Source: Norana najaformis (lineage: Eukaryota; Annelida; Clitellata; Crassiclitellata; Hormogastridae). Taken from it: a stretch of 64,000 nucleotides of DNA. Location of the stretch: NCBI GenBank assembly GCA_964023275.1, contig OZ029914.1, positions 45,578,437 to 45,642,436 on the forward strand, written 5' to 3'. Each line of letters opens with the position of its first letter. Positions within the stretch are counted from its first letter, which is position 1. The notes beneath the pieces were generated by a model that saw only the letters and a program-made list of their open reading frames with translations, ran no database searches and was not told the DNA's origin. Both the position numbers and the translations under genes were made by a program. Below are positions 12,275-64,000 of this stretch, piece after piece.

Positions 12275-20741
<8,467 letters not shown>

Positions 20742-32056: not shown

Positions 32057-32704
32057 CCCAGTGCAGGGCATTACCCTCCCCTTTCCCTTTTGCTGACGTC
32101 AGCATTCTAACGCAAACGACTGCTGAAGCTCAGTAGCCAGCAATACAAGGCACGGCACAGCTAAGCTGCTCCCCGCAAAGTCTACTAATGATCCAACGCA
32201 GTAAAGACTGTGCTCTCTTAATGAGAGGCAGAACTGAGATAACCGGTATTATGTAGCAAATTTAGATGTGGACGTTTGCATTACATTTGGACAACTCCTC
32301 CTTCTCCCGTCTGCAGATGTCCTTAATGGATGACACCAAAAGAAGCGACATTACCTGGTATGCCCATTAATATGCCCATTACAACGCAGGTAACAAAAGA
32401 CAATGTTGAACAAAATTACAAACTGCAACATAACAGTTAGTTGCTATGCTAAGAAATGAAAACATGAAAACTGCAACTGTCTCTCCTCAAAGATTTACAG
32501 AATGAATTAACACTCAAATAAAAAACTGTTAAAATGAAACACACCACATTTAACTATAGTGCTTGAGCGACTTGTGCCAAATCCACGGGGAATCATTCTG
32601 AAGTAGTCCAGCACCCAAATGACTTCGGCATCACCAAACTCCAAACACTGCAACCACTTGCGGCAAATGTAGCATGTAATTACATCAAACTTTTCCACTT
32701 CATT

Positions 32705-40990: not shown

Positions 40991-42272
40991 ACAGAAACAG
41001 AGACAGAGAGTTATAAAGCACTCAAATACACACCATGAGAACTCCCGCCAATTTTTCTGGCTCATCAGCCTACCAGTGTGTCGTCCATAGCAACGCATTG
41101 TTGACATCAGCATCCGTATCAAAATTAGCGAAGCGTGACGGTCTAATTGGTTCTCAAAGTCTCTGACAGATTGACCAGCGACATCTACCGGTCATTTCAC
41201 CATATTATTAAACAGATGCAGGTAATATTTCATCTTTGTTTCTTCCAAATTAATGGGGCGCCTTTCAAAAGCCTCCAGTATTTGTCAGCATATTTCACTC
41301 GCGAAATTTGGGTACATGCCAGTTTTAATATTAGTATGGACCTCATCACGATATCTTATGCATAACTAGAGCTAATAAATAATTGTTTCCAGCCTCACTT
41401 GCTGCACGAATCAGTGTAGTTGGCCGCATAGTTTGAACAGAGGTCAGTATTGCGAATCACACGTTGAGCCAACGTTTGGAGAACGATGTTTGCTGACATT
41501 CATGTATTCGGAATGTATAAAGCTGAATTAAGCTGGCTGCCTTGGAAGACATCTATTGTCCTGCTATATTTCGCGACTTGGCGTCTGATACTTTTAGGAG
41601 CATCATCTATCAGTGCTTGCGTTTTTAAATATCGGCGCTATAGAAGTTAAGAGATGAACTAGCTTAAGAATCGTTGCTTATGTATGGGTGTAAATATTAT
41701 ACGTCTGTAGGCTTATGCTATTTGAGACGTATTTAGAGGTTACTGTAAAATTTGCAAATGAATTTTGCCAAGCGGATTGCAAGGTTAACTGACTTAAGAA
41801 AAAGATTGGAAGTGTTTGGCCTGTGTAACTATGCAGCCTCGACACTGACGCAAGTGATCTCTGAATGTGAAACATGAAGACTTATTATCGTATAACCCCA
41901 CTGTGTAGGATGTCTGCGATTACTATACAAAATCAGGTACTTAGCAGGCTTATTGCTTCTAATATTGTTTTGTCATGGTTTTCACGATCGAAACCTCATT
42001 TAAAAGTAATAAAATCACAGAAAGGGTGCTATTTCTAATGCACGTACAATGACATTAGGAATGGTTCATCGCTTTGATATCGTTCTGTGGAGTTTAATCG
42101 TAATCGTTAGCTGATAAACTGCTTTTCTTCAGCGCTCTAAAAGCTCGGTGGTAGGTATAAGTTTATTTGCAGGCGCTTTATAGAAAGCAAAGTTGGCGAG
42201 AAAGGTTATCCGTTAGCGTTTCATGATGTTTTATTTGTGTCGTATGCTTTCTGCCACCTGTTAGTTGTTGCC

Positions 42273-44986: not shown

Positions 44987-46884
44987 ATAAAAATATGAAT
45001 AAGAAGAAATAATACGTTTAATCACTTGAGCACAGAATTAAAGAAAGTCAGTTAAATGAAATAATATAATTATAATATCAAATAAAAAAGTTAAGAAACG
45101 CTAATGTATATTAAGAAGAAATTAGTAAATATAATCATTCAAAAAGAACCCAATTAAATTAAATAAATCAATGAAACTATAAATAATATTTTGGCGGACA
45201 GGCCACAAGGCTTCCTATGGATTGATTAAGAAATAATAAAAAAATTTAATTAGCCACAGACCCTTGATGGTAAGATTAGTGGTTGGGATCAGCAAGATCG
45301 TAAATGTAGCCACCGAATTTCTTAAGCGCTCGGTGAACCTTACTTGAAACCAGGTTATTCGCAGACTCCTGTTGAAAGACAAAACTGATAATGTAGGTTA
45401 TGTAAATGTAAATCTTTGAAATTTCTCAGCGTCACACAAAAGCCTCGTCAGGGAGACCAGCTCAATCAGGACCCTTTAATCAAATCAAGTCCACAAGACT
45501 GGTTGCTTGGTCAGTTTCGGTAAGGTCATTCGGTTCGAAGTCCATATCTTAAGGTATAAAGGATGAAAGATATACGGTGGACTCATGGTAGACGTTATCT
45601 TTGTGTTTTCGTCCATTACTTCATCTTGTTGACGATCACGTTTGGATCATTCGAGGGAACGTGTGTAAATCATATCGATATCTAATCGACCTTAAGTTGA
45701 TTGATTATGAATTAAGTTGACACTGCATTGCTTGACGCAGAGTTATAGTTTCAGAAGAATTGGTAAGTATTAAGTAGTAGGCCTACTTTTGTTATCGTAT
45801 GCAAAGTGAACTACTGATAAACTTGGTTCTTTTTTGTGAACAATCAAGATCGAAGTCAACTTAGTAAAACGCACATCTAAGGATTAATTTAAACGTCTCG
45901 GTTAAGGACCTCAAAGTTTCGTAAACATCCCTGGTAGGCCGACTTCATTTGTTGTAAACCCACACATCATTCATGCAACAGTGGCCTAGTTGGGTTTTTA
46001 CATCTGTATACGAGTCCTAATCGCTGTCTGTCTGTCTGTTTATCTCAAGGGGTTCTCGGACTGGACAATATCCCAGTAGGAAAATTACTCTCGGACAAAA
46101 CCCCTAACATAAAACCCCATGGGACAAAATTTTATGGTCAGAACCCCAACGGTTAATATGCCCCTCGGACAAGCAATTGACATTGTATGTCTGTTTGTCT
46201 GCTTGGATGCTTACATAACAATGGTCACGTAATTCTCTCATCTTGTCGTTAGCTCTCTGTAGGTCCACTGTGTCACAGTAGAAATATCAGGTGATATCTG
46301 AGCGGTTCACTGTCCGATGCGTACAGGCAACCTATTTATAACGAGACGAGTGATTATTCAAGTTATGATGTGTTCCTATATATGTTCTTTGCTTCTATCG
46401 GCCTCTGAATATCGGTCAAGTCAGCCAAATTCTAGTGCAAACCACTTTGGGCAGTTTGACAATGTACATTATCAGCTTCGATGCAGCTCAGAGGTAAACT
46501 GAATTGCATTTTAAATATCAGTTGATACTGGCATATCAGCGATGACTGGCATTCAATGGACGGATTGTGATAAATGTCTGATTGGCTTCGCGGTAAGAGG
46601 AGATCAAAGAGCGAATCAGAGGGGGGGAGGGAGCATACTTACTCAACGATAACTTAAACAATTTGGGCGATTTAACGTCATTCGTGAACCGCAGCTATCG
46701 CGGTTAGGCTGTTTTTTTTCTAAGCTACACAAAAGGGCACGGCCAGGTATACTTAGTATCCGTACGAAGAAATTGTGTAAAGTAATACAACGTACAAATA
46801 CACACTTTATTTTCAAAATTTCATACACGCACCTATAATTACATTCATGCATACATGTTAGTATAATTACATATAGAAGTGCAT

Positions 46885-47110
46885 GTATGCATGCATATTT
46901 ACATACATACATACAAACATACATGCATACATACATACGTACATACGTACGTATGGCGTATGTACGTACATACGTACGTGAATACATTTATACATACATG
47001 ATTACACATACACATAAACGTACATGCACACATACATGTATACATACATATGTTCGTACGTACATATATTCAAACATACATACATTCATATATACTTGTA
47101 CATATGTGCA
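46885..47110. repeat. CATA/CGTA simple repeat with palindromic core
   Basis: Tetranucleotide tract. Its centre (about 46930-46980) reads 'cgtacatacgtacgta', a six-base gap, then an approximately inverted copy, so a hairpin could form. Confidence 0.85.
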
Positions 47111-47202
47111 TGCATATTAGTGTCGGTCAGCGTTTCGAAGATTCCTGCTTCAGTCCATTAGCATCATGCTTCGTCATTCGATTCTTCTAAAGACTTGTTA
47201 AC

Positions 47203-47311
47203 ATGTTGAAGACTTTTTCAGAGATGGCGCTTTTGCTAGTTTTCCTCGTGTGCATGGTGACGATCAGTACAGCCGAGAAAGCTCATGTCAAGTCAGCGGC
47301 TGTCAAAGCAG
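47203..47311 (+). CDS. Signal-peptide exon of the CUB gene
   Basis: ATG at 47203, 36 codons plus one base, GTAACG donor at 47312 (phase 1). The hydrophobic core is ALLLVFLVCMVTI, followed by S-T-A before E-K-A. It is about 2 kb from the first CUB exon. The link rests on phase compatibility and the usual exon order of secreted proteins, not on transcripts. Confidence 0.7.
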
Positions 47312-48144
47312 GTAACGAATAATGTTGATGCGTGTATTCTGAGTAGGTCTAAGCGAAAACAAAAAATCATCAAAGTTTATGTCTCAGTAGATAAAAATGT
47401 AAAGATGCCATATCCCAAGGAGAGGCACTAATTTCCTATTCTTAGACCAGTGAACCGGCAGTGGACGAATCCCAAGATCGTGGACACTGGGCCGATGCGT
47501 CGCAGGACTTGCCCTTTACTTCTCAGCTTACGCCGATACCAAATTATACTGCTTGGTGACAGAGGCACAGTGTGCGCAGAAAACTTGTCCAAGCTCGAAC
47601 TCTCATTAGTCTGATTAGAGACCAGGACGGCTACCGAATATACCACCTTGTCGCAAGCTCCCAGTATACAGTTGCATGTTAAATTGATTTCTGCTCGTTG
47701 TCGCAGAATTATGTTTTCAGAAGTATCTGTTATCAACTGAAAGTTCTTTGGTTTAAATCTAGGACTCGACCTGACTGACCTTAGCAATTCGACTTGAATC
47801 AGATATGACCCTACTTGCGTCATCGATTTTGTTTCGATTGAAATTTGCCAATAAGTTGGCGCAGCTTTTTGTGCGCTGAAAATGTTTGAGTTTACAATTA
47901 CAGTTACGACTACACTATGGATCGAATTTTTTATAGGTCGCATAACGACAATGCGTTTCAAGTTTAAGTGGTACCTCCACAATACCCAAATTATTTAATG
48001 GGTCAATACCCTACTGTCTGACAACAGCTTAGAAAAATTTTGCCTTCAAGTCTAAAAAAGTCAGTAAAGGCAATTTCAAGCGTGGATAAATTATCTACCA
48101 CTGCAAAGTACTTCAGATTTCTCAGAGATTTATAGTAGCATTGC

Positions 48145-48204
<60 letters not shown>

Positions 48205-51200
48205 GTAAGCTAATTTATATAGCGCCGTAGCACAGCCAAGGCCGAAGAAAAGAGCGCTGTACATGGGTTCAAAAATCAGCTACAGTCATAAGATATCCTA
48301 AAAAGATGTGTCTTGAGTCGTGACTTGAATGTGTCCAGGAATGGGGCATTCGTCACATTCTCAGGAAGACTGTTCCACGCAGTGTGTCCAGCGACAGTGA
48401 AGGAACGTTCGCCGAACTTCGTGGAAGAACGCGGGACATGCAGTTGATTCCTCGATGAGAACCGTAGCCGATGTGTGTTCTGGTTGTCGGCTGTTCGAAT
48501 ACAGAAGTCGGATATATAGTCTGGTAGAAGACCATTAAGAGCCTTGTATGTAATTAGACACAGTTTGTAGGTGATCCGCTGAGGAATACGCAAGCAGTGC
48601 AGGTTGTCGCGCAGCATATCAGTGACGTGATTGAATGGTGTCCGACCATAGATGAGGCGGGCAGCAGAGTTTAGCACTGACTATACCCGCTCTAGCTGAC
48701 AAGTCGGCAGATCTGCCAGCAAGCTATTGCAGTAGTCAACCCTGGACTATGAAGCTGTTGACCAGAGTGACAGCGGTTGAGGTGGGAATGAATGAATGAG
48801 TTACCTGAGATATAGCCAGATCGTCGAGTAAATAGCTTTATCTAGGATTGTAAATCATTTTAGCAAGAAGCTGCCTGTAGGGCCAGGCCAAAGATAAATT
48901 GCATGGAAGTCTGTGACTGGCTGTTTAAATACCCGAGTGTCCGAGAAAATAAAGGACTTCAAGGCCCTTGGTAAACTAATTTTAAAGTTTGCTTAGTTGA
49001 ATTCCTCCAGTGCCTCAGTCTGCGATGACCTCTCAAACTACTGGCCATTTTGGATTCGTAAGTTCACCCTCTATCACGGCAACTGTTAAAACAGTATTGC
49101 AAATGTAGCCTGACCACTGATTTGTAAAATATCACAAAATTATTGTTTTCAACGTAAGTGTTGTAATGAAAAACATTTTCCTTAATTACTCTTACATTAC
49201 GTATTTTTGTGAAATATCTGGCAGTGCAGTTAAAATATATTATTTGATTGAACTGTTTTGTTGCCACAGTCTGCGATAACACCTCCTACTTCGGTCCGTC
49301 AGGGGTCATCAGTTCTCCCAACTACCCTGGCAATTACTACGACAATCTCTACTGCGATTACAACATTTACGCTTCAACCGGAAGTTCGTTCTCGATCATC
49401 TTCGAATCGTTCAACATAGAAGATGGCTACGATTTTCTGACGGTTAGTATTCGATGATTTTGTTGCAGGTTAGTTTCTGTTGTCGGCTTACGTTGGAAGC
49501 TACTTTTAACGTGCTTCATAGTCACTATTCTTGTCAGCTTCATTGCCAAACCATTGGAGCGATATGTTATTTCTAAATGTGATACAGTATAAAGTAAGTC
49601 GTTACGCTGTTGCAGAGTGACGTATGGTTTCACGTGACGCTTCGCATGTGGACCTATCTTGTAGGCATGCAAGCGCAGATCTGTTTGAATTCGTTCATTG
49701 GGAAGGGCAAGCCGTTGTGTTATGGTTGTGGTTTTGGTAATGGCTGCTTGCTAAACTTGGAAAGTTAAGATCATGAAAAAACTTCTTTTCCCGCAGCTTC
49801 ATAATGTACAGATTGTCTAAGTCCACGAGACTATAGTATGCTTTCATACTTTTAAATGGCTGGTGTTTCATAGTCACTCATTATAACAGTTGCTCAGAGT
49901 TTTCACATTTTACTGTTTGTGTTTTGAGTTTGCTCATGATCTGTTCGCATTTAAAGTTTGCAAAAAACTTCTATTAGCTATACTTTTCCTATAATGAATT
50001 TAACCCAAAAATTTGGATTTGGAAGCTGTTTATTTTGAGCATAATGTAATAATTTGCAAAATTAAAAAGGAATAGAAACAACTTGACTTTGTACGACAGA
50101 TCAGTTGCCCAACCAACGCGAGTTTTACATCAAAAGAATATACTGGATATTCATTACCTGACCCAGTATCGATTCCTTGGTGCAGCCAAGGAAGAGTCAA
50201 CTTTCAAAGTGACTACTCTGTGGCCTACAGTGGATTCAGCCTCGATTATTATATCAGTGTAGGAGGTAGGGGTTTTCTACAGTGCTTCGTATAATAAGTG
50301 ATGTTTGGAATGCTTATTATTACATAGAAGCAATGAAAAAGATAGTGCAGAGATGCTGACCCATCATACAAACTCACCTATGCTCTACTGCTTGCAATTT
50401 CTGCATTGACCTTTCACTCAAAACTGAAAACATTCCTCTTTCACAGGTCCTATCCTGACTCCCCTTCTTCCTCTTATCTCTCTTTCCGCTCCAATCCCAA
50501 GCATCACCCACCGTAGGTGCCACGCTGTCTCTCTGCCTGACTTTTGGGTCTTGACCTGGAACCGAAGACTTTTGCCTATCGATTTTGTTTTGACTGGCGA
50601 CTGTGAATGACCTGGTCCCCGTGACGAGGCTTTCGTTTGGCGCTGTAAAATCTCGGGATTACGATTAAGATAAAGAGACGGAACGTTCGGAATGAGATAG
50701 TGGCCACGGATGGCTTGACGAAGGTAAGAACAGTTAGATATTTTGCACCCCGGAGCGAGTGATAGCAATCGCCCCCACACTTCCATAGAAATTTTGAATG
50801 TCAAGGAAAAACAGCAATTTAGAGAAACGTCTTTGTGTTGAACATTAATTGATGGTATTATAGGAGAACACCTACCAAAACTCATTATACAATTTTTCTA
50901 ACTTTGATAGCTGGAAAATCTTTGAAAACTTCACCGAAATTGTTGTTAGCGGCTGCTTCATTATCAGTGAAAACAACAGCAGTTTGTTGGCCTCTCTTGT
51001 GACACTGAACGCTCTAAATAGGATTTGACAAGTTCTATTTTGCTGTCTATACTGAAACTGACAATGTCAAAAGAATCTGAAGAAGTGAGGCCAAAGTCTT
51101 TTATGCCCCTAATGCCACTGATGAATTGTAGGCCTTTTGAGCAGTCCAGTTGGAGAATTCTTCAATCTGTCCTCTATAAGGCTCTTTTGATCTTTGGGAC

Positions 51201-54200
51201 CCAGGCTCTTGTTGACCCTTAAGTTAACACAATTAAAATGTTTGGTGCAGATGAATAAAATATGTCTTAAATATTTCATTTTGCCACCCTCTTTGCTGCC
51301 TCTTGAACAGTGCCGCCCGGGGCGGCCGCAAGATTCGTCCCTACCCCTAACTACGTCATTGAAAAAGAAGGCACTGTTGAATATTAATTTTAGTAGAAAT
51401 GAACAAGATCATGATTGTAAACTCTGCATTTCTTCGCCGCCCAAGAAAAGTTAAATTTCGGGAATCAGCTTAATCACAGGCGCTTCATCAAAGCAACATT
51501 TGCCAGGCAATTATGGCCAGGTTTGGATCCGAGTCAAAACCCAAACCTTGTGCTTCTACGATAGATGATGTTTTATAGCGGACAGTTTTTGGTTTTTGAA
51601 TGACGGGTATGTAACAGGTAGATGCAAAAGAAAGCATTGTCCTTTTAATCGCTTTTGTTGGAATTTAGTGTTTAAATCCAGGATTTTGAGGTTTAAGAAC
51701 TCGGTTTATTTAAATGTAATCGCTCATAATAATTATAATAAAATTTTGCTGGAAGTGATATAAAATTCATTTTAAAGAGTCCATAGCGTCTTTAGCGCCA
51801 CCTATTGTCTAAATTGTTCATGATATGTTACACATAATAACGGTTTCTTCTCGTGTTGCCTGTGTACTACAGCTTAAAAGGTGGAATATGATTATTGACT
51901 GCAGGTTGTGGAAACACAGTATACAGTGGTTCCAGCGGGTATGTCACGTCTCCGAATTGGCCGAATAACTACGTATACAATCAGAACTGCTCCAACATCA
52001 TCTGGTCTCCACAGCGAAGCACGTTCCACCTCTATTTTCAGTCTTTCATCCTAGAAAGCTGCTGCAGTTGCGATTGGCTAGAGGTATAATACCTGTAATT
52101 AGTTGCATCACCTAAAGGTAGATGGGAATTTTAGCGGAAATGTTAAGAGTCGGGTCGAGTGCCAACCGGTCGGTGCAGTAGTGATTGCACCTTCCTCACT
52201 GGTCGTCGCTGGGACAGAGTATGTAGTTCAGGGCGTGAAACTGGCACGTACCATGGTCGTGGGGGCTGCGCAGTGGTGCCCGTCTGGGGATAGGTGCCTG
52301 GTGGTCCCTAGTCGAACTGGAGGGTGTCGGAGCGGCCGCCTGTAAAGCAAGTGAAGGGCTCGAAGTGTGTCGCCCTGTTGCGCGCAGGGTGAAAACCCGG
52401 AACCCCCGACCCAGGGGCGACGGGCGAGGGCATACAGCAGACTCTGAACTGGTGACGGAAACTGTATCGATACACTTGATGGACGAGTGCCCCGTGCACG
52501 AGTCCGCCTCCGGGCCACTCCCGAGAGGGAGGAGGTTTTGCCCAGTGCTAACTGAATAAGTCAAAGTGAAGAAATTCAAAATGCGACGGGCAACGGCCTG
52601 GAGTGACTAGTACTCTCTTAAGGATAGATGGGAATTTTAGCAACCGTAATATACCAAAACAATGATCTGGCTTTGTCTTTGCTTCACATTTTTTGCATAA
52701 TACTGCGACACAGTGGTCTGTTTGGTAGCGCGTTGGAGTTTAATCCAGCGATTGTGGGTTCGAACCTGCTGAGTGCACTCCGTGTAACGACCCTGGACAA
52801 ATTGCCTGCGCACAATTGTATCGCTAATCAGATTCAGGTTTGCTGACCATGCAGATGAGTTCCACAACAGAGGTGTCAAACAGCTTTATCTTTCTTTGAA
52901 AAGAGATAATATAATAATTAATGTTCAACAACCATTGTTCTCTGATAAAAGGTCACTCAATGGGGATTTCGCACAACAAAGAGTCACTATATTCGCAAGA
53001 TAACACATAGGGTTCAGTATATAGTTCATTGCATTACTCTCGCAATCGTGATAAATGTAATAAAGTAAAATAAGCCAAATAGTAATAAAAATAATTAAAC
53101 ACCCCGGCCACGGACCTCTAACCACTGAGACTATAAAGAATGATCCATCATAAAGTTTGCATATGTGAAGTATACTCTTGAGGCAGGAGATATAGGATTC
53201 ATAAGGTTCGTGTGTCATAAAAATCAGCAATTAAAGACAATGGATGAAGATAATACTATTTGTCTGCTGACATTTGTTCTAGATTAAATGTCTGGACAAC
53301 TCGAATTATGGTCCGTATAGATATTGTGGAACATATAATTCCCACACCCTGTACATCTACGAATGCAGTCAAGTGCTCTTGTGGTTCCACAGCGATGCTT
53401 CTAGAAACTACCAAGGATTCAACATCCAGTACAACGTCTATCCGGATGGAGGTCGGTCGGTGTAAACTCAATTCGAAAAATATTGCAGTGCTTTTGATAG
53501 GTACATGACGGAATATTCAGAGTCAATGCAAACACATATAAAAACATATATACCCACATACATACATACATACATACATACACACACATAAATACATATA
53601 TAAATACATACAAACACACATACATATAAAAATACATACACACATAAATACATATATAAATACATACACACATAAATACATATATAAATACACACACACA
53701 TATATATATATAAATACATACACAGATAAATACATATATAAATACATACACACATAAATACATATATAAATACATACAAGCACACATACACAGTCTAAAC
53801 CTACCACTACCGACAACATATTTTAGGTGTTGTAGCTGATGATTTTCGAAGGGCAACTAGTTGCTATTTTAACTAAAGTAATTTATTGCCTCTATTTATT
53901 GCCGGAGCTTCTACAAGTGATTACCTATTGTGATCGTATTGTAATTATAATTTAAAATTTGTATAGCGCCTCTTAAAAAATAAACTCATCACAGATGCTC
54001 TTTGAGCTAACGGTTTTAAATGTCATTAAGAACGGAGCATTCGTCCATTAGTAAACGTTGCTCAGATGACTAAAAGAGTCACCAGACTAGACAGCTATGT
54101 AAAGCACTTCTGACCATCAGAAATGTTACATAAAGAGTTCGAATCTCCTATGAGGTATCCACTGTCTTAGGACTTTGAAGAATTCATTCTCGCTGTTACT

Positions 54201-57200
54201 TTTCACGATAGCTGTCTTATTATAGGGTCATGAAAGCTATTCGGGAAATTGTTTCCCTAAGCTTCCTGTCTCGCCAGGAAGGCGTGGGATAGCTGAATGT
54301 TTGCTTTGATATAGGTTAATACGCTGTTGAGATAAGTCGTCCTGTCGAATTTATCTGTCTGGTGTTTACCCGTAGCCTTCACCCTCTTCAGAGGTCACCA
54401 AATAGGGAGTTGGGCCCAGGATTATTGAATGACAGTGTGTAATTGACATGTCAAAGCACTTACTTAAGGTGTCTGCAGTACCTTAGTAGGGTGCGGGGCC
54501 ACTCGCCTTCCAACAGCAACCTGAGGGAGATGCTACCGTTGATCCGCGACTCCTTACACGTCGGGGAATACCGGCTTATTTCGCAGCTAACCTCCATAAT
54601 GGAGGTTGCTCTACCATCTGACAACCGTGATGCATCGGGTTGAAGTTACAGCTCTGCACAGATTCGCAGATTATATGATCTTCTTCTTTGGCGCGTCCCC
54701 AACCTGAGCATTGCTTTCCCAAAACATATAACCACAGGCCTCTACTCTGTGCATCTCTCAAGGCTGTATGTAGTCGGAAGTTCAGTGGGCGCAGGTTACA
54801 CTCCACAGCTCTTGTCCATGTAATGCGAAGGCGTCCAGTTGGTCTTTTCCAGCCTTTTGAGGGTTAGACTTTATAACTCGCACAGCTGTGGCGTGGTACT
54901 GTTCGCTGTTGCAACGCGCGATGTGTCCAGATAATCGGAACTTCCTCTATTATATCATCCCATACACTGAGAGATAATGACGACGCAAAGATATAATCAT
55001 ACAGCGATGTTACACTGAATAAATACTAAGATTTTTATCATCAACGTTACCACCATCGCCATCATTACAATCATCGTTACCACTTTAAAAAAATTACTCA
55101 AACAGTGCTCATACCATGCCATTTCAAGTTTTGCATTTTCTAGTTTATTATGCATTAGAAAACAAAAATAATTCGCAAATACTTAGTCTAAAATGGTAAT
55201 GCTGTGAAACTACTACTGATATTATTTGCGCAGTTATGACTAAACAGGCAGCAGTCAACGGAATTGGAAAAAGCCTTATTTTAAAATGAAAAAAAAAACA
55301 TTGTTGCAGGGACTCCGAGTCAGCCTACACCGACGCCTCTTCCGACGACGACGCCTACTCCACCAACCTCTTCAATTATCCAAGGTTAAAATTAATGTCT
55401 ATATTTACATGTACATTTGTTCAGAAAGTAGTCATAACATTATCAGTAATTAATGGCATTTATTAAGCACCATAACGTAATGACTAACTGTGTAGCACAC
55501 ATAATTATGAGAATTGAAAAGTGCCTTATTTTTTAAATGAAAAAATAACATTGTTGCAGAGTCCACGAGTCAAGCTTCTCCAACGCCTCCTCCGACGAGC
55601 ACTCCTTCTCCGCCACCCTCTACAATTATCCCAGGTTAAAAGAAATTTCTGTATTTACATGTACTTTTTAATGAAAGTAGTCAGTTAAGTTTCAGTAATT
55701 AGTTGCTTTCATTAAACGCCATTATCTATTGACTAAGCAGGTAGCAGTCGAAAGAATTGGAAAGAGCCTTATTTTTAAATGAAAACACATTGTTGCAGAG
55801 GTTACGAGTGATGCTTCTCCATCGCCTCCTCCGACGAGCACTCCTTCTACGCCACCCTCTACTATTATACCAGGTTAAAATAAATTTCCATATTTACATG
55901 TACTTTTTAATGAAAGTAGTCAGTTAAGTTTCAGTAATTAGTTGCTTTCTATTAAGCGCCATTATCTATTGACTAAACAGGTAGCAGTCAAAAGTATTGG
56001 AAAGAGCCTTATTTTAAAATGAAATAAAATTGTTGCAGAGGTTACGAGTCAGGCTTCTCCAACGCCTCCTCCGACGAGCCCTCCTACTCCGCCACCCTCT
56101 ACTATTATCCCAGGTAATAAAATAATTTCTGTATTCACATATACTTTTTCTAAAAATAATCACTAAACAATTAGTTAAATTTATTAAGCGCCACTACCGA
56201 ATGACTAAACAGGTAGATAAAAGACTTGGAAAGTGCTTATTTTTAAATGAACAAAATGTTGCGGAAACTGTGAGTCAACCACTTCAACGGTTTCTCCGTC
56301 AAACACACCTACGTCTCCAGCTTCTACAATTATCCAAGGTACTAAAGCAGTTTCTCCATTTTCATGTACCTTTATACAACAGAAATGTTTAGACTCAGTC
56401 TCTGTATTACTGACATTTATAAAACGCCGTTACCTATTGACTAAGCAGTTGTAAAAAGTATTACAAAGAGCCTTATTTTCGAATGAAATAACATTGTTGC
56501 AGAGGTTACGAGTCAGGCAACTCCAACGCCTCCTCCGACGAGCACTCCTTCTCCGCCAGCCTCTACAATTAACCCAGGTTAAAATGATTCCATATTGACC
56601 TGTAGTTCTTAATGAAAATAGTCAAGTAGGTTTCAGTGATTTGTGGCTTTTATTAAACGCCACTATCTGATGACTTAGCAGGAAGCAGTCGAAAGTATTT
56701 GAAAGAGCCTTATTTACTAATGAAAACACATTGTTGTAGAGGTTACGAGTCAGGCAACTCCAACGCCTCCTCCGACGGACACTCCTTCTCCGCCACCCTC
56801 TACAATTATCCCAGGTTAAAAGAAATTTTTATAATTACATGTACTTTTTAATGCAAAATGTCAGTTAAGTTTCAGTAATTATTTGCTTTTTTAGACGCAG
56901 TTATCTATTGACTAAACAGTTAGCAGTCAAAAGTATTGGAAAGAGCCTTATTTTTAAATGAAAACACATTGTTGCAGAGTCCACGAGTCAAGCTTCTCCA
57001 ACACCTCCTCCGACGGACACTCCTTCTCCGCCACCCTCTACTGTTATACCAGGTTAAAAGAAACGTCTGTATTTAACTGTACTTTTTAATGAAAATAGTC
57101 AATTAGTTTATAATAATTAGTTGCTTTAATTAAACGCCATGATCTTTTGACTAAGCAGTTAGCAGACAAAATTATAGGAAAGAGCCTTATTTTTAAATGA

Positions 57201-60200
57201 AATGAAAAAAACAATTTTGCAGAGGCGACGAGTCGGGCTTCTCCAACGCCTCCTCGGACGAGCATTCCTTCTTCGCCACCCTCTACAATTATCCCATTTA
57301 TAGAAATTTCTTTATTTACATGTACTTTTTAATGAACGTAGTCAGCTTTTATTAAACGTAAGTATTGGAAAGAGCCTTATTTTCAAATGAAAACACATTG
57401 TTGCAGAGGTTACGAGTCAAGCTTCTCCAACACCTCCTCCGACGGACACTCCTTCTGCGCCACCCTCTACTATTATACCAGGTTAAAAGAAACTTCTGTA
57501 TTTAGCTGTACTTTTTAATGGAAATGGTCAATTAGGTTATAATAATTAGTTGCTTTAATTAAACGCCATGATCTATTGACTAAGCAGTTAGCAGACAAAA
57601 GTATTGGAAAGAGCCTTATTTTAAAGTGAAAACACATTGTTGCAGAGGTTACGAGTCAGGCAACTCCAACACCTCCTCCGACGAGCACTGCTTCTCCGTC
57701 ACCCTCTATAATTATCCCAAGTCATAAAATAATTTCTATATTTATATATACTTTTTAGTGAATTAGATTTCAGTGATTAGTTGTTTATTAAGCGTTACTA
57801 TCCAATGATTAAGCAGGTGGCAGTCAAAAGTATTGGAGAGAGCCTTATTTTTAAATGAAAACACATTGTTGCAGAGACTACGAGTCAGGCTTCTCCAACG
57901 CCTTCTCCGACGGACAGTCCTTCTCCGCCGGCCTCTACAATTATCCAAGGTAAAAAAATAATTTCCATATTTACACGAATTTTTTTCTGAAAATGGTCAT
58001 TAAAGCTCCATTGCTTAGTGGTATTTATTAAGCGCCACTATCTAACGACTAAATATGTAGCATTCATAAAAACTAGAAAGTGCTTTATTTTTAAATGAAG
58101 TAACGTTGTTGCACGGACTACATGTCACGCTGGTGCAACGGCTCTTCCGCCGACCTCGCCTACTCCACGCCCCAGGAGATTATTATCTGAGATTTCGGGT
58201 TTTCAGCGTGGTGGAACATGTGTTTTACTCAATATCAAAGAAATCTTATTACGGCTGCACCTCAACTCTCAGACGATTTCCCTCCTGAATTTCGCAAAAC
58301 TCCTATTCCTCTCTCTCCTGTCGTTCACACAGCACCGTCTTGAGCCCTCCTTTCTATTGCTCTTAAGGCATGCAATTCCAAACTGAAGTCTCAACGTTTC
58401 ACAAAATATACCCTGCCAATCTTCCGCCTTCCAAATTCTTTCAGCCTAAATACAACCCACCGTAACAGCTGCTTCACCCCTTGCTCCCTCTGTTTTCTCT
58501 CAATTGGATTTTGTTCTTCCAACAGCATCTTTGGACAACCCTTCCGACTTGCCGCAAGGCTCGTAAATGAGGCGAATAGCATTAAAGTAGCGCTTTTAGA
58601 AATTTTCGAGAGTACGGTTGCGACTACTTACTTATCGAGGAATTTCCGCTTACTTCACATCTACCTTCTTGATTGTCGGTTCTTCAGCCATCCGCTACCC
58701 ATGACGTTCTCGGTTGGAGCTACAGCTTTACACAGATTCCTTGCTTATATAATGATTTTGAGATATAAATATAATCAGCGTCATTCTTGTCCTTTCCATC
58801 ATCATTATTTTTGTAATCATCATAATTAAATTCATCATCAGTAATACCTGAGACAATTTTGCGATAATGTAATACTAAAATCAAGCCATGTCATATAAAA
58901 TTAATTTTTGCAATTGTGTAACAATATATAGTTTATATATATATGCCTCTAGCGGAGATGTATGGTAGAATTTGACTAGAATTATTGAAAGGTGTTATGC
59001 AAGAGTGATGCTTTCATATATCATTTCGAATTCTAAGCAGCTAACTACAATGCCCGGTTTGTTAGTGAGTAAAATGCACACGTTAGCTTTATATATGTGT
59101 AATCAGAAACCCTTCAAAGCCCTAAATAAGATAATGTTAGAAAGACGACGAATTAGATGAGATGCGGATGTTGCTTGTATTGCAATTTTCGCAGACTCGT
59201 GAAGATCTACCAAAGAACTCCCTTGTAAAGTTGGCAGCTGATGCATATGGAAATATTAATTTGTAACATGCATAGATTGGAATATTAATGTACATCTGTA
59301 CACACGTACATGTTTCTCGTTTTTGTAGCCACCGACGTCACTCAATCTCCCACAACTAGAACAACCACGGGATATGTTCCCACAGGCGAGTACTCTTCAA
59401 TAGCATTGAATAAAAGTACCACACGTTCAGCCGAATGACCTCTGAATTGAATTGATTTGAAACACAATTTACAGGTTCCATAAGTTTCTGCCTTGTGCTT
59501 TTGACACCGGCGCCATATTATATACGTTCTGTTTAATGGCAACAGTAGTACCTCGTATGAAAGTGCTTACGATTAAAATGCTGTTTGCCGAATTTGCAAA
59601 TGCAAGCATACTTTTTGGAGCCAGCTGTGCCTACACGCTCAAGTGTATAAGAACGCTGGTATATATTTTATAATATATTATAAGATATTCATAATACATA
59701 CCTATGTTACAAGGGTTTTAAAACATCAAATTTATAATGCGGATTAACGTTACATTAACAACTTGCAATTGTCATTTGAGGAGCAATAAAAGAAAGATAC
59801 ACAATGTTTATTTAAACGGCTTCTTAGAAACTGTTCAGAATCTTGAAATTTTTGTTTAATCGCCTCCATTCTTCTCACAAGGGTGAATATGACATTGAAA
59901 TTATATGTAAACGCCTCCATGGAAACTCGTCAGACTCGTTGTCGTTATCATAAGCTCGAGCTTTTATACAGCGTACAAAGAAAGCTAAATCGCAGGAACC
60001 AGCTGGTTTATGGGGCGCTGATTCATGAAAAATCGACAAGCAAGCAGGTCAGATTCAGTACCGGATCACAATGCAAAAATAAGGTAGCATGACAGACAGT
60101 TACAATGGATGGTGTCTAGAATTAAAGAGGTGTGGTACCGAGGTCAAAAGTTCATTCGGCTGAGGAGAGAATACAACCTCAGCAATCAAGCGCCGGGCCA

Positions 60201-63200
60201 TCTTAACGCCAGTTGAATTTCAGGAGTTCAGCGGCATCAGTTGGTTCGGGACTTAAACTACTGGTGTTTGTAAGAAACAAATAATTACCTGAATGACTCA
60301 CTTCTTTTCACTGAAATGCTACATTTGTGACAATGCAATATATTTTGTTGCATTATTGTATCTTCATAGGCTGCGGTGACAGTTCATACTACGGTCCGTC
60401 TGGAGTCATCAGTTCTCCCAACTATCCCGGTTTCTACTCTAATAATCTCGACTGCGATTACAACATTTACACTTCATCGTCGTCTAGTTCCATTGGTATA
60501 ATTTTCCAAGCATTCAACACTGAACAGGACTACGATAACGTGACGGTTAGTATTTTTCAGCAGTTTGTATTTTGTAGAGTATAATTCTCTTAGTCAAAAG
60601 TGATCAATCTAAACCGTTGACTTCTGTATCACCCGTTAAGAGTTCCAGCGATACATTAGTCATTTTAAGGCAGGCGTCAAAGCTTAAACCAGGGCTAGAA
60701 AAGTAATGTCACCTTACTACTTCTCTTTTATATATTTGTATTTACAATTTGTAAACGTGCTCGTTGAACTGTTGTCAAACTTTGAAGTGTTGTGATGGCC
60801 TTATTGCCCAATCAAAAACCGATTGTGTGTCGCTTGATTTTTTGATACCACACATCCAGGCGCAGTGGAGTTTACCAACATCGATCGGGCTTAGTACACG
60901 GATGGTTAGCCGTCCATGGAATACCACGTCACAAGCAATTCAACTTTTGTGTTCGGAACTTGATTCCAATACAGTTTTGGAAATTAAAGGGGTGTCCTAT
61001 TGTTGGGTACTATTGTAATTTGAGATTTTTGTAATTGTAATTGTAATTTGAGATTTACAAAGCGCCTTTTAGAGAATAAACTCAACAGAGATGCTTCCGA
61101 CCCGAAAGAGTAAAATCACTGTTAAACAGTACAGTCTTCAGGCGCCTGCGGAACACTGAGAGGGGAAGAGAAAGGAGCTCAAGTGGCAGTGGTTATATAT
61201 GCGTCCCGACTCGGAATCACGCTTTTAAAGAGTTTCTGTAGAAGTGTCTAAACAAGCTACCCTTCTACCCTTATGATTATTTGGCATGTGCTTAGTGCAG
61301 TAAGGTTGTTTTGCCTATAAAAAATCAGATTGCTGGATGTAAACTCAATAAGCCAATTAAACAGGTCAGTTTTGAGTCCTGTTCTGATAGACACCAGAGA
61401 CATCATAACGTTCCTATGTTGTCATAATCTTAAACGAAGCGATCTAAACTCTGATGTTTTGAAAAGTATGTGTAGCATCAAAGTTTTGGAAAGTTGCCAT
61501 AACAATACTAAAATAATTCGTGATATTGCATCGACCAGTTAATTTGCTGATTCTTCATTTTATTTTCCGATAAATAGATCAACTGTTCGACAAACTCGAG
61601 CTTCCCTTCAGTGACATATTCTGGATCAACACTACCTCAGCCTCTTTCCATTCCTTGGTGCAGTCAGGGAAGTGTCAACTTTCTCACCGACAAGTCAGTA
61701 TATTCCACTGGGTTCAGCCTGGATTACCAAATCAGCCTCGGAGGTGAGGATCATCAAACTCACGCCACAAGCTCATCGAGTCATATATGTGTAATTGTAA
61801 TTGTAATCGCAGATTTACGCAGCGCCTCTTCAAGAGAAATTCCTCAAAGGTTCTTCTAACAATACAAGATCACAATTAAGCAGATTTGCTTTCAAGTGCT
61901 CACGGAAAATAGGCAAAGACAGACTGCGAAGGTTATTTTGTCGTCGCGTCCAATGGTAGCCTATTACGAAATTATGGATCGACCGCATCGAAACTTATAT
62001 GCTTCAGCGCGAAGCCTGGGCCAGCGGGATAATCAAGTCGCCCTGAGCAGCAAAGTGGAGGGATCCGCGGCCAGGAATGGATGATGTTGTGATGCATACC
62101 TTCCTAGAGTAAGACGGAGCACAGCCTGTAAAACAATTTTATTTTGCGATGGCATTGTGTCTCCATTTTATTGTATTCAGGTATCAGATGCAAACAATGG
62201 AGGGTGAAATTACTCAAAAGATTAGTAAATGATAAAACAATTAAGAAGAGAATAAAGAAAGGAATATTCCATAAGCAAAGGAACAATCGGAAGCAAGTTA
62301 TGTCAGTACAGAGTCAAATTATAATTGAAAGAGGCTGTTGAATTTGTAAATAACGCCTCTTAAAGAGCCTTACACAGGTTCTCATAGATCATATCAGATG
62401 CTTGGCCTATTCTTTCGCTTCGTTTTGATTAAACTAGTGATTTAAAATCTCCAGGTTGTGGTGAAACTGTGTATACCGGGTCACACGGATACGTTTCATC
62501 TCCGAATTACCCCGGGAACTACAGCAACAACCTAAACTGCTCTAACATCATCTGGGCCTCTCAACGAAGCTCATTTTCTATCCACTTTCGATCTATTCAG
62601 GTGGAGGGATGCTGCGATTTTGTTGAGGCAAGTGGTTTAATCTTGTCGAGCGCTGAAGAGGCCAGACTCATACTTTTGAAGGAAAGTCTGTGCAGTGATA
62701 GGCACAATAGCTTCAGACAGATGATAGGTAATTAACTGGCTGTGGATCCTACTGCTTTAAATCTGGCGCAGGGTATTTCAATCGATTTCCACTATTCTTC
62801 AAAAGATTTATCCGCTATATTTTTCTCATTTTCACATGCTGTCTATCAACGTTTTCTCGCAGTTGCTAATTATCATGCTTCGAAATGTCCGCCTCCCTAC
62901 TTGTAGCGCAACTATAAGTCGAGTGAAGCACATAGTCTTTGATTTTATGAAACCGAAAATTTTTCGGTTAAAGACCAAGACCATGTAATGTAATGTTAAC
63001 CTCCAATACACCAGCAAAGCGTCATCAAGAAGGCTATCTTAATATTATAATCACCGTCCACCCAGATAATTGCCAATTTAAATTGCTTTTCACCTTTACT
63101 AGAAAATTTGATTTGTTGGTGTAATGTAGATCAGTTGCCTAGACAACGCTGAGTACGGTACGCATCGATTTACTGGAATCTTCCTTCCACCTGAGCAGTA

Positions 63201-63899
63201 CATTCCTCGATGCACTCAAGTGCTCGTCTGGTTCTACACCGATAGCTCTAAAGTATTCCAGGGATTCAACCTCGAATACTATGTCACTCCTGAATCAGGT
63301 GAGTAGAAGGAATGATTTGTTAGCCATCGAGTTCTACGAAAAATGTACTTGACCTTTCATTGTGGTAATGTATTGTAAATTTCTAATGTTTTTCACCGTG
63401 TTACAAAACGAGTTTCGAATAGACCACTTTATTCAACGCGTCTTAGCAAATCAAACGCTCAAAGTCGCTGATTTTGAAATTCAAAATTTCCGCAAGGTTC
63501 GAATCTTGGAAAACTATGCTCAAGACTTGGAAAGTGGCTTATTTTTAAATGAACTAACATTGTTGCAGAGGCTACGAGTCAGGCTGCTCCAACGGCTCTT
63601 CCATCGATCACGCCCACTCCACCAGCCTCTACAGTTAACGAAGGTTAAAAATGATTTCTCTACTTATATTGTACTTTTTTATGACAAAAACTTGCCGTTG
63701 AAATACCACGAACAGTAGCTTTTATTAAGCGCCTCTTTCTATTAACTAAGCAAGTTGCAGTCAAAAGATATGAAAGTGCGTCATTCTTAGGGCGAAATGA
63801 AATAACATTGTTGCAGAGACTACGAGTCAGGCTGCTTCAACGGCTCTTCCGTCGATCACGCCTACTCCACCGGCCTCTACAGTTAAGCAAGTGTACTGA
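47203..63899 (+). CDS. Secreted modular protein: signal peptide, four CUB domains, Pro/Thr-rich tandem exons
   Basis: Proposed coding exons: 47203-47311; CUB-A1 49270-49442 + 50100-50265; CUB-B1 51905-52083 + 53283-53451; ten intact 75-nt PT exons between 55310 and 57949; linker 59329-59385; CUB-A2 60370-60545 + 61578-61743; CUB-B2 62455-62627 + 63130-63298; PT exons 63569-63643 and 63817-63899. The sum is 2445 nt, 814 aa plus stop, with consistent phases: every module border is phase 1 and every CUB is split once in phase 0. The N-terminus MLKTFSEMALLLVFLVCMVT is a signal peptide with likely cleavage after ...ISTA. There is no transmembrane segment or GPI signal. CUB domains bind partners in extracellular matrix and complement-like proteins, and the PT linkers are mucin-like and probably O-glycosylated. 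Specific function unknown; exon usage is predicted without transcripts. Confidence 0.82.
48149..48690 (-). mobile_element. 5'-truncated CR1/L2-like LINE with (AAT)n tail
   Basis: On the minus strand 48677-48276 stays open for 133 codons and reads as the C-terminal end of a non-LTR reverse transcriptase: LNSAARLIYGRTPFNHVTDM, then KALNGLLPDYISDF, FGERSFTVAGHTAWNSLPEN and LKTHLFRISYD. A short 3' UTR with 'ggcgctatataaat' follows, then a (TTA)n tail at 48205-48148. The uninterrupted frame suggests a fairly young insertion. It lies in intron 1 of the CUB gene. Confidence 0.9.
49270..50265 (+). CDS. CUB domain A1 (two exons)
   Basis: Exons 49270-49442 and 50100-50265. Typical CUB features: C..., GVISSPNYPGNYYDNLYC, SFSIIFESFNIEDGYDFL, then C...WCSQGRVNFQSD and GFSLDYYI. 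Four cysteines allow the two standard disulfides. The E (FNIED), D (GYDFL) and D (FQSD) positions suit a calcium-binding CUB. Closest relative in the window: CUB-A2 at 60370-61743. Confidence 0.9.
50390..50690 (+). mobile_element. LINE 3' end, family L-FHSK
   Basis: Forward-strand relative of 258-600 and 10990-11400. It encodes FHSKLKTFLFHRSYPD, then a Ser-rich stretch and a 3' UTR ending near 'aaaatctcgggattacgatt'. Confidence 0.65.
51905..53451 (+). CDS. CUB domain B1 (two exons)
   Basis: Exons 51905-52083 and 53283-53451. Features: GSSGYVTSPNWPNNYVYNQN, CSNIIW, LESCCSCDWLE, then YCGTYNSHTLYIYECSQVLL, WFHSDAS and YQGFNIQYNV. It has extra cysteines (C-C-S-C) compared with the A type. Its intron (52084-53282) contains the GC-rich 28S-like insert and a SINE. 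Confidence 0.9.
52121..52641 (+). mobile_element. GC-rich retro-insert with 28S-rRNA-like 3' end, flanked by direct repeats
   Basis: Direct repeats 'agatgggaattttagc' lie at about 52121-52136 and 52626-52641 and bound ~490 bp of strikingly GC-rich DNA in an AT-rich intron. From about 52535 to 52624 the sequence follows conserved eukaryotic 28S rRNA: 'tgcccagtgct', 'gtcaaagtgaagaaattcaa', 'actctcttaagg'. It stops at the point where R2 retrotransposons insert. The upstream ~400 bp are not recognisable rRNA and hold no convincing protein. The insertion target 'aaaggtaga' resembles the R2 cut site (AAGG/TAG). Confidence 0.65.
52708..52850 (+). mobile_element. tRNA(Lys-like)-derived SINE
   Basis: Head 'tggtctgtttggtagcgcg', anticodon-arm-like 'ttggagtttaatccag', B box 'gtgggttcgaacctgc'. 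This is the best-preserved tRNA-like head in the window. It is not a functional tRNA gene, since the acceptor stem and 5' part do not pair. Confidence 0.7.
53535..53790. repeat. ACATA/ACACATAAATACATATATA simple repeat
   Basis: About 255 bp of ACATACAT-type repeat with a higher-order ~26-bp period ('acacataaatacatatataa'). All reverse frames are open with Tyr/Ile/Cys/Val low-complexity peptides, which is a repeat artefact. Confidence 0.95.
53935..54050 (-). mobile_element. LINE 3'-end fragment (GCGCC-TATA tail type)
   Basis: Starts with a TTGTAATTATAA-type tail, then 'tttgtatagcgcctcttaaa' and 'aaactcatcacagatgctc'. The same layout recurs at 61020-61200, 61785-62080 and 62335-62400, all in this orientation. 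Confidence 0.5.
54576..54960 (-). mobile_element. Degraded LINE fragment (post-RT region)
   Basis: Reverse translation gives RLSGHIARCNSEQYH and, after a frameshift, GWKRPTGRLRITWTRAVECN, resembling the conserved 'GHVxR...RPxGRPRxxW' region after the reverse transcriptase of RTE/CR1-type elements. It then reads LRDAQSRGLW ('A.DR..W' in the family). Stops and frameshifts break it. Confidence 0.55.
55310..57949 (+). CDS. Array of 75-nt Pro/Thr/Ser-rich exons (ten intact copies)
   Basis: Intact copies: 55310-55384, 55560-55634, 55799-55873, 56039-56113, 56503-56577, 56740-56814, 56978-57052, 57407-57481, 57646-57720, 57875-57949. Each is exactly 75 nt, phase 1-1, after an acceptor 'ttgttgcag' (tgtag in the sixth) and before a donor GGTTAAAA-like GT. 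Typical translation: EVTSQASPTPPPTSTPSPPP then STIIP. The introns (about 150-175 bp) are also repeated, with 'gagccttatttttaaatgaa' before each acceptor. The product would be a mucin-like linker of about 250 aa, unstructured and rich in O-glycosylation sites. 57720 ends in A instead of G, giving a weaker donor. Confidence 0.85.
56265..56338 (+). pseudogene. Decayed PT exon (copy 5): acceptor lost, 1-nt deletion
   Basis: Aligned to its neighbours, the acceptor AG has become GG ('ttgcgg'), and the exon is 74 nt instead of 75. Inclusion would shift the frame. The donor (ccaag|gtacta) is intact. It is probably skipped, fusing the introns on both sides. Confidence 0.8.
57223..57297 (+). pseudogene. 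Decayed PT exon (copy 9): donor lost
   Basis: The acceptor and 75-nt length are kept, but the expected donor 'ccag|gttaaa' reads 'ccattta', with no GT. Read-through would meet a stop in the following intron (TAA near 57333). The downstream intron is also ~60 bp shorter than usual. It is probably skipped, or makes a truncated isoform. Confidence 0.75.
58115..58185 (+). pseudogene. Decayed PT exon (copy 13), end of the first array
   Basis: The acceptor is 'ttgcac' instead of 'ttgcag', the second half is rearranged, and no donor stands at the expected place. It resembles the type seen in the 3' array ('gtgcaacggctcttccgcc' against 'gctccaacggctcttcca'), so this edge copy is the closest relative of the 63569/63817 exons. 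Confidence 0.7.
58186..59328. other. Intron between PT array and linker exon
   Basis: About 1.1 kb. 58290-58600 is a C/T-rich stretch that could be an old LINE fragment, but I cannot identify it. The rest is AT-rich and featureless. Confidence 0.4.
59329..59385 (+). CDS. 57-nt Thr-rich linker exon before the second CUB pair
   Basis: After acceptor ttttgtag the frame reads ATDVTQSPTTRTTTGYVPT, phase 1-1. The donor would be ACAG|GCGAGT, a GC-type site; no GT in the neighbourhood keeps the frame. It is not a copy of the 75-nt PT exon. Without transcripts it may be optional. Confidence 0.55.
60370..61743 (+). CDS. CUB domain A2 (two exons)
   Basis: Exons 60370-60545 and 61578-61743. Nearly the same layout and residues as A1: YYGPSGVISSPNYPGFYSNN, CDYNIY, FNTEQDYDNV, then WCSQGSVNFLTD and GFSLDYQIS. 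The donor GTTAGTATT and the position of the internal intron are shared with A1, so they arose by duplication. Confidence 0.9.
61020..62400 (-). mobile_element. Three LINE 3'-end fragments in the introns around CUB-A2
   Basis: Fragments at 61020-61200, 61785-62080 and 62335-62400 each begin with TTGTAATTGTAA or a similar tail and continue 'agatttac..agcgcctctt'. The span also includes the second exon of CUB-A2 (61578-61743), which is not part of the element. They resemble the fragment at 53935. Confidence 0.45.
62455..63298 (+). CDS. CUB domain B2 (two exons, GC donor)
   Basis: Exons 62455-62627 and 63130-63298. Counterpart of B1: GYVSSPNYPGNYSNNLNC, SNIIWASQRSSFSIHF, VEGCCDFVE, then CTQVLVWFYTDSSK and FQGFNLEYYV. 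The internal donor is GAG|GCAAGT, a textbook GC donor; the next GT would break the frame. Confidence 0.88.
63569..63899 (+). CDS. Second, short PT-exon array and terminal exon
   Basis: 63569-63643 is a complete 75-nt PT exon (EATSQAAPTALPSITPTPPA, then STVNE). 63817-63899 is a second copy in which the donor has been lost ('caagtgtactga' instead of 'gaaggttaaa'). The frame runs three codons further to TGA at 63897. This makes a plausible terminal exon ending ...STVKQVY. No poly(A) signal is visible in the last 100 bases of the window, so the 3' end is not confirmed. Confidence 0.65.
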
Positions 63900-64000
63900 C
63901 AGAATGAGTTTGCTGTGTCCGTCTGCGTCGACTGAAGTATTCGCAAGCGAACACAAACCTTGGTTTCAGTGCTTTGTGGCAAGCGGTGCTAGTATAATAG

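Follow-up and report, generated by a model that had tools for sequence, protein, structure and literature searches.

Within a window of 64,000 nucleotides from the annelid Norana najaformis (assembly GCA_964023275.1, contig OZ029914.1, positions 45,578,437 to 45,642,436), a unit of about 240 bp is repeated in tandem. This locus raises the question of whether the array belongs to a protein-coding gene, with a whole exon and its intron as the repeated unit, and whether the number of units changes. A profile of the 75-nt exon identified 12 units at 55310-57949. TRF reported a period of 239 at 55237-57345 (8.8 copies, score 2087) and of 229 at 57360-57973 (2.6 copies). Each unit, termed PT unit in the following, consists of a 75-nt exon with phase 1 at both ends and an intron. 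The exon is 75 nt long in 11 of the 12 units and 74 nt long in one; acceptor AG, donor GT and the length of 75 nt are all retained in 10 of the 12. These are PT exons 1 (55310-55384), 2 (55560-55634), 3 (55799-55873), 4 (56039-56113), 6 (56503-56577), 7 (56740-56814), 8 (56978-57052), 10 (57407-57481), 11 (57646-57720) and 12 (57875-57949), all on the plus strand; the donor of exon 11 is weak (CAA|GTCATA). The exceptions, on the same strand, are broken unit 5 (56265-56338), where GG replaces the acceptor AG and one base is lost (74 nt), and broken unit 9 (57223-57297), where TT replaces the donor GT and the next exon is 109 bp away. A decayed plus-strand unit 13 (58115-58189; profile score 18.2 bits) has lost both splice sites, with AC at the acceptor and AG at the donor. 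The preliminary description had placed 13 copies within 55310-57949; 12 are found there, and the number 13 is reached only by counting the decayed unit. Self-comparison of the array gave 12 off-diagonals, the ladder that 13 units should produce. The start-to-start spacings of the 13 units are 250, 239, 240, 226, 238, 237, 238, 245, 184, 239, 229 and 240 bp and thus range from 184 to 250 bp.

The array lies in a gene that starts at 47224 on the plus strand. Its first coding exon (47224-47311; MALLLVFLVCMV...) is signal-peptide-like, as judged by eye, and ends in phase 1. It is followed by three modules, each consisting of CUB a, CUB b, a number of PT exons and one Thr-rich closing exon, and then by a fourth CUB pair. 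In module 1, CUB a is encoded by plus-strand exons at 49270-49442 (first half, phase 1 to 0) and 50100-50271 (second half, phase 0 to 1; alternative donors at 50256 and 50265), and CUB b by plus-strand exons at 51905-52083 (first half) and 53283-53451 (second half, phase 1 at its end). The linker is closed by a Thr-rich exon of 57 nt (59329-59385, plus strand, phase 1-1, GC donor). PT units occur at six places, and five of these are followed by a homologue of the closing exon. Module 2, likewise on the plus strand, comprises CUB a (60370-60545 and 61578-61743) and CUB b (62455-62627, with a GC donor, and 63130-63298). Next comes a second plus-strand array, which begins with PT exon 1 (63569-63643) and PT unit 2 (63817-63891, donor gone) and continues beyond the window end to 67832. 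The partial model contains 54 exons and 1853 amino acids; it is free of stops and its phases agree at all junctions (AG/GT or GC joining), the exons having been hand-picked with the reading frame in mind. All of its 34 PT exons are of phase 1-1, as are the closing exons, and the model exons flanking the PT array end and begin in phase 1. The unit of about 240 bp composed of a phase 1-1 exon of 75 nt plus an intron, as originally described, agrees with these phases and with the TRF periods.

A protein assembled by hand from the exons of modules 1 and 2, with the closing exon omitted, matches Pfam CUB (PF00431) with an E-value of 9.8e-54 and 180.8 bits, compared to a curated cut-off of 21.4, in four stretches; the best of these spans positions 1-110 of the 110 profile positions. 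Among solved structures, that of cubilin comes nearest to the first CUB pair (E 1.1e-26). CUB was the sole family above its curated cut-off when the plus-strand frames of 45001-64000 were scanned, and neither SRCR nor ZP domains, which together characterize the DMBT1 family, were seen; note that the gene continues downstream. Pfam gave no match at E 0.1 on the minus strand of 50001-60000, Rfam at gathering scores matched nothing within the window, and a tRNA search found none. The gene belongs to a tandem cluster of related genes. DNA homologous to the exon at 47224-47311 occurs at four further places downstream: the peptide recurs at 84923, 143381 and 160832, and the site at about 110300 is a DNA profile match only. 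Since this signal-peptide-like exon recurs, one giant gene across all 164 kb was ruled out; gene starts in the cluster were assigned by eye. No 3' end could be located for the gene: among the matches listed, frames conserved among the four gene ends were inseparable from conserved non-coding DNA. The CUB modules, their repetition in the gene, the gene cluster and the dead exons were absent from the preliminary description.

Across the locus, 42 of 48 profile hits score above 40 bits, and the exon is 75 nt long in 41 of these and 74 nt in one. AG is retained in 41 of the 42 units, GT in 37, and both in 37. Only three indel events fall inside the exon in these 42 units. Counted in windows of 75 bp, there are 23-49 indels in the eight windows mostly off the exon, 19 in the one that lies about half over it, and 1-13 in the four mainly over it. 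The lengths of 30 introns (109-193 bp) leave a remainder of 0, 1 and 2 on division by three in 8, 13 and 9 cases. GC content is 0.557 in exons and 0.293 in introns, and introns are more diverged than exons (0.237 vs 0.197). The right frame contains a stop in 1 of 37 exons, the two wrong frames in 10 and 13 of 32; among all 48 hits, in-frame stops occur in three, at 101981 and 102458 (both decayed) and at 138706 (in gene C, splice sites kept). The 37 exons are composed of 31% P, 24% T and 15% S, as in the Pro/Thr/Ser-rich repeats of a mucin-type PTS domain. At their 18 NCN codons, diversity at position 2 (0.103) is below that at position 1 (0.196) and position 3 (0.187), with a difference of -0.089 (CI -0.159 to -0.007), and P, T, S or A therefore tends to be kept. 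The pooled pN/pS of the 37 exons is 0.83 (CI 0.53-1.27), which is indistinguishable from 1, and that of seven exon pairs of linkers 2 and 3 is 0.56 (CI 0.12-2.60); pN/pS is too weak to be relied on as the principal test of coding. When linker 2 is compared with linker 3, 8 of 448 exon sites and 73 of 2186 other sites differ (Fisher p 0.097). PT exons are protected from indels, and their single residues are barely constrained.

Splice sites were scored with a profile built from CUB exons of the locus (62 acceptors, 55 donors), which are paralogous exons and bias the profile towards themselves. PT donors are mediocre: the commonest, CAG|GTTAAA, scores 6.7, compared to a 25th percentile of 6.1 and a median of 8.4 for CUB donors. 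On this CUB-derived profile, PT acceptors are poor and all score below the lowest CUB acceptor (5.2); for PT units that keep the AG, 17-77% of the AGs in the region reach an equal acceptor score. The weak predicted acceptors, the repetition and similarity of exon and intron parts alike, and a pN/pS that is not confidently below 1 would all suit a non-coding intronic satellite, in which a 240-bp unit was spread by unequal crossing-over and the open frame is incidental. However, the indel depletion is centred on the 75-nt exon, the phase agrees with the model CUB exons on both sides, and the second codon positions of P, T, S and A are preserved. Moreover, the unit was found in this gene cluster only: a 241-bp query spanning roughly one unit gave at least 45 matches in the genome (a lower bound, as the search ignores very common words), all within a single 77-kb stretch of the locus and on the coding strand. 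Because of the indel pattern, the phase and the joint retention of AG and GT, a pure satellite is judged unlikely, with a very low probability of being the right account. By sequence, the tandem unit is a whole exon plus intron, and the exon is symmetric. Indel depletion, preservation of P/T/S/A, matching phases and the full-length CUB match support the earlier proposal of a coding exon-intron cassette, and in all likelihood the PT array codes for a Pro/Thr/Ser-rich linker of symmetric phase 1-1 exons.

The six linkers of the cluster contain 13, 12, 16, 5, 1 and 1 PT units, of which 10, 10, 14, 2, 0 and 1 have AG, GT and 75 nt; linkers 2 and 3 of the gene account for 12 and 16 units, respectively. 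Mean unit divergence is 0.260, 0.269 and 0.264 within the three arrays and 0.254-0.284 between arrays; this comparison, tried as a homogenisation test, shows little difference and does not separate the arrays. The closest two units differ by 13% in the window array, by 7.5% in linker 2 and by 0% in linker 3. Linker 3, which lies outside the window, contains a duplication of about four units with a period of 981 bp that is near-identical over 840-921 bp, with 837 of 840 bases identical (14 windows of 60). Growth by unequal crossing-over, as originally suggested, is supported by this recent duplication in a sister array, which indicates that a copy-number process is active in the gene. High variability of the window array itself is less well supported: its closest units are 13% apart and three of the 13 have decayed, so that it shows no recent duplication. 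Copy-number polymorphism of the window array is, given this distance, less likely.

These data leave about an even chance that the PT exons are real and yet the length of the window array is essentially fixed, its copies being the relic of an older expansion rather than a VNTR. The 13% distance and the decayed units fit this reading, as does the nearest relative of each unit, which lies in the same array for 7 of 12 units and in other arrays for 5; the duplication in linker 3 of the same gene and the equal mean divergence across the three arrays speak against it. The duplication itself might be an assembly error, with two haplotypes placed end to end, since 837/840 identity is found over a size where assemblers can fail. 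Within the assembly sequence, the match is aligned with the unit period, and both of its ends drop sharply, a weak point against such an error, which we consider improbable. It is conceivable, albeit rather doubtful, that weak and similar splice sites let transcripts differ in how many PT exons they include, as has been reported for SmPoMuc. The symmetry of all 34 model PT exons and predicted sites weaker than those of most CUB exons would favour such combinatorial splicing, whereas the low acceptor scores may stem from the biased profile. An extended version, to which we assign little probability, combines both processes in a length-diversifying secreted or surface receptor. Here, variable inclusion of weakly spliced, interchangeable PT exons would set CUB pairs at many spacings per cell or individual, germline gain or loss of exons would add to this in linker 3, and dead exons would be harmless as the symmetric phase makes units skippable.

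We consider it probable that the array is a spacer between CUB pairs of a large secreted or cell-surface protein, that its copy number shifts by unequal crossing-over, and that skippable units are tolerated. A sugar-coated stalk that separates binding domains is the most likely product of the repeated exon-intron units. Judged from their composition, the PT exons may be O-glycosylated and form stiff mucin-like stalks, the length of which would set the distance between CUB pairs. Selection would act on frame, composition and rough length and not on the exact residues. Unequal crossing-over between similar exon-intron units would add or remove one or more units at a time, each of 25 residues; a recent change is seen in linker 3 and not in the window array. 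Because all PT and closing exons of the model are of phase 1-1, the reading frame is kept whatever number of them is included or left out. Units with a lost splice site would be tolerated since skipping them preserves the frame.

Coding repeats made of exons and introns are already known from SmPoMuc, spider Flag and MaSp2, and LPA KIV-2, and the general architecture is not new. SmPoMuc of Schistosoma mansoni has a unit of about 1 kb in its 5' region, more than 93% identical and present in up to 20 genomic copies, and its transcripts carry 1 to 100 repeats (PMC2576457). In contrast, the exon described here has 75 nt in a unit of about 240 bp and forms spacers between CUB pairs; CUB domains are not mentioned for SmPoMuc in the available text of PMC2576457. 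In Flag (Nephila) and MaSp2 (Argiope), which encode repetitive structural proteins, exons and introns are likewise iterated within a single gene, which was attributed to intragenic recombination (PMC1885213). However, their introns are nearly identical and their repeats long (Flag ensemble about 440 aa), whereas here the P/T/S exons are short and the introns more diverged than the exons. LPA kringle IV type 2 is also a protein-coding repeat of exons plus introns, whose alleles carry from 1 to over 40 copies, but its 5.6-kb unit contains two exons and encodes a folded domain, and its allelic variation is established (PMC6314250). DMBT1 shares CUB domains and binding domains spaced by short Ser/Thr-rich spacers (20-24 residues), with heritable variation in repeat number; its spacers alternate with SRCR, whereas here 10-14 intact spacer exons stand in a row between CUB pairs (PMC3100851). 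For the gene itself, no description was found among the matches listed for a few terms in open papers, which is no claim of absence.

The repeat unit of this locus is a spacer and not a folded domain. With 1 to 16 units at six places, the cluster provides a natural series that shows exon-intron units arising and decaying next to each other, and it points to symmetric exon phase as a buffer for both expansion and decay. If the arrays are polymorphic, they would constitute a protein ruler that varies by steps of 25 residues.

The tandem repetition of the PT unit, a 75-nt Pro/Thr/Ser-rich putative exon plus intron of about 240 bp together, was recovered by TRF with a period of 239 over 55237-57345 and of 229 over 57360-57973. 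The preliminary description had counted 13 tandem units in 55310-57949; a profile of the 75-nt exon located 12 there, and the thirteenth is a decayed, dead unit outside the interval, at 58115-58189. Self-comparison likewise produced a dot-plot ladder of 12 off-diagonal lines, as many as 13 units should give. Acceptor AG, donor GT and a length of 75 nt are intact in 10 of the 12 units; in the unit at 56265 the acceptor and one base are missing, and in that at 57223 the donor.

The window was placed at C2:45578437-45642436. A 241-bp query of about one unit (window 56740-56980), searched against the 608-Mb genome (17 contigs), gave 45 matches, all on a single strand within C2:45.634-45.710 Mb; very common words were skipped, and counts are lower bounds. 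Elsewhere in the window lie a 525-codon open frame (13722-15299, minus strand), which resembles a Tigger-type DDE transposase, and two long open frames (42141-44946, plus strand), resembling a RING/B-box protein and an NHL-type half. There are also 2.1 copies of a 300-bp unit (31415-32057, 99% identity) and a 62-bp minisatellite, with a 31-bp period too (6092-6461, 5.9 copies, 96%).

The window and 100 kb downstream, 164 kb altogether, were scanned, with the window numbering continued (extended coordinates). CUB domains flank the array on both sides. The 32 CUB first-half exons, all on the plus strand, form 16 pairs with regular alternation of CUB a and CUB b; 31 second halves exceed 40 bits, the last pair being truncated where the scanned DNA ends. 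Signal-peptide-like exons recur at 47224, 84923, 143381 and 160832, with a further match, by DNA profile only, at about 110300. The locus therefore has the appearance of five or more genes in tandem, the fifth of which is interrupted by the end of the scanned DNA. In gene A, PT arrays follow CUB pairs 1, 2 and 3 (linkers 1 to 3, the first being the array at 55310-57949 with its decayed unit) and comprise 13, 12 and 16 units; AG, GT and 75 nt are all retained in 10, 10 and 14 of these, respectively. Gene B has one linker with 5 units, 2 of them passing this test. Gene C has one unit at each of two places, 0 and 1 passing, and the passing unit contains an in-frame stop. A Thr-rich closing exon (57 or 60 nt, phase 1-1, GC donor; five aligned, three measured) follows five of the six PT-bearing places.

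Eight of the 32 CUB first-half exons, all of type b (62455-62627, 70422-70594, 79699-79871 and five others, in extended coordinates), end without an in-phase GT; GAG is followed by GC, read as GCAAGT, GCATGT or GCAGGT. The introns that follow them are likely a paralogous GC-AG set; closing exons likewise carry GC at the donor position. In gene C, the successive CUB pairs at 115820-118286 and 120592-123058 (extended coordinates; spacing 4772 bp) have all four half-exon peptides identical, which points to a further duplication of a module, also very recent.

When joined, 54 exons from gene A yielded 5560 nt, or 1853 codons, with no stop and every phase matching: 34 PT and 3 closing exons are 1-1, 8 CUB first halves 1-0 and 8 second halves 0-1. 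Because homology, frame and splice dinucleotides guided the choice of exons, the model tests consistency and does not stand for a transcript. Pfam CUB matched four stretches of the joined protein of modules 1 and 2 (closing exon omitted), the best spanning all 110 positions, whereas individual exons cover half of the profile; the CUB junctions are therefore supported. The 3' end of gene A was searched for in the 164 kb and not found.

The strongest evidence for a coding PT unit is the indel pattern. Among the 42 aligned units (those above 40 bits of 48 profile matches; 6 dropped), three indel events fall in the exon, and 75-bp windows that slide out of the intron upstream, across the exon and into the intron downstream contain 25, 25, 29, 29, 30, 23, 9, 1, 12, 13, 19, 35 and 49. 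Exon length is 75 nt in 41 units and 74 in one; AG is retained in 41/42 and GT in 37/42. Thirty PT introns range from 109 to 193 bp, with remainders modulo 3 of 0, 1 and 2 in 8, 13 and 9. At 18 NCN codons, diversity at position 2 is about half that at positions 1 and 3. Other tests were weak or negative: pN/pS of 37 PT exons was 0.83 (0.53-1.27), equal-length CUB-half subsets giving 0.56, 0.35, 0.42 and 0.29 (n=10, 13, 8 and 9 sequences); linkers 2 and 3 differ at 8/448 exon and 73/2186 other positions (p 0.097); pairwise divergence of 32 regular units was 0.197 in exons versus 0.237 in introns; and predicted PT acceptors scored poorly with a profile whose source was the paralogous CUB exons. 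In our reading, constraint on the linker probably concerns its frame, its length class and its P/T/S/A content, with little besides.

The three arrays could not be distinguished by mean unit divergence (0.260, 0.269, 0.264). In linker 1 the closest unit pair is 13% apart, the closest relative of a unit lies in its own array in 7/12 cases and in another in 5/12, and unit-by-unit divergence revealed no recent duplication. Linker 3, downstream of the window, contains one of about four units (74023-75924, extended coordinates): 74060-74899 recurs 981 bp further on with 837/840 bases identical, and the full match, 74023-74943, has 13 differences in 921. The offset corresponds to four units. Three unit pairs differ by 0-1.1% and the fourth (74862 versus 75843) by 9.3%, which would place the crossover ends within units. 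Non-exon sequence of linkers 2 (63300-65960) and 3 (71626-74286) diverges by 3.3%; the block duplication would therefore be younger than the module duplication, barring gene conversion or misassembly. Array variability is therefore better sought in linker 3, whose duplication is the most promising candidate for a VNTR that is still live.

Symmetric exon units, unequal unit numbers in paralogous linkers and a near-perfect block duplication are established at sequence level, as are units with lost splice sites next to a gene whose frame is open elsewhere. Unequal crossing-over may have changed unit numbers, and dead units would be skipped. The PT linkers may be O-glycosylated and serve as spacers.

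Coding repeats with an exon-intron unit are a known design. SmPoMuc has the same gene design (PMC2576457); its authors likened it to spider silk genes (PMC2576457; silk genes: PMC1885213). In the well-known coding repeat LPA KIV-2 the unit is likewise exon plus intron (PMC6314250). DMBT1 has comparable short Ser/Thr spacers, their number varying by inheritance (PMC3100851). The twist on this design is nested repetition: exon in array, array in CUB module, module in gene and gene in cluster.
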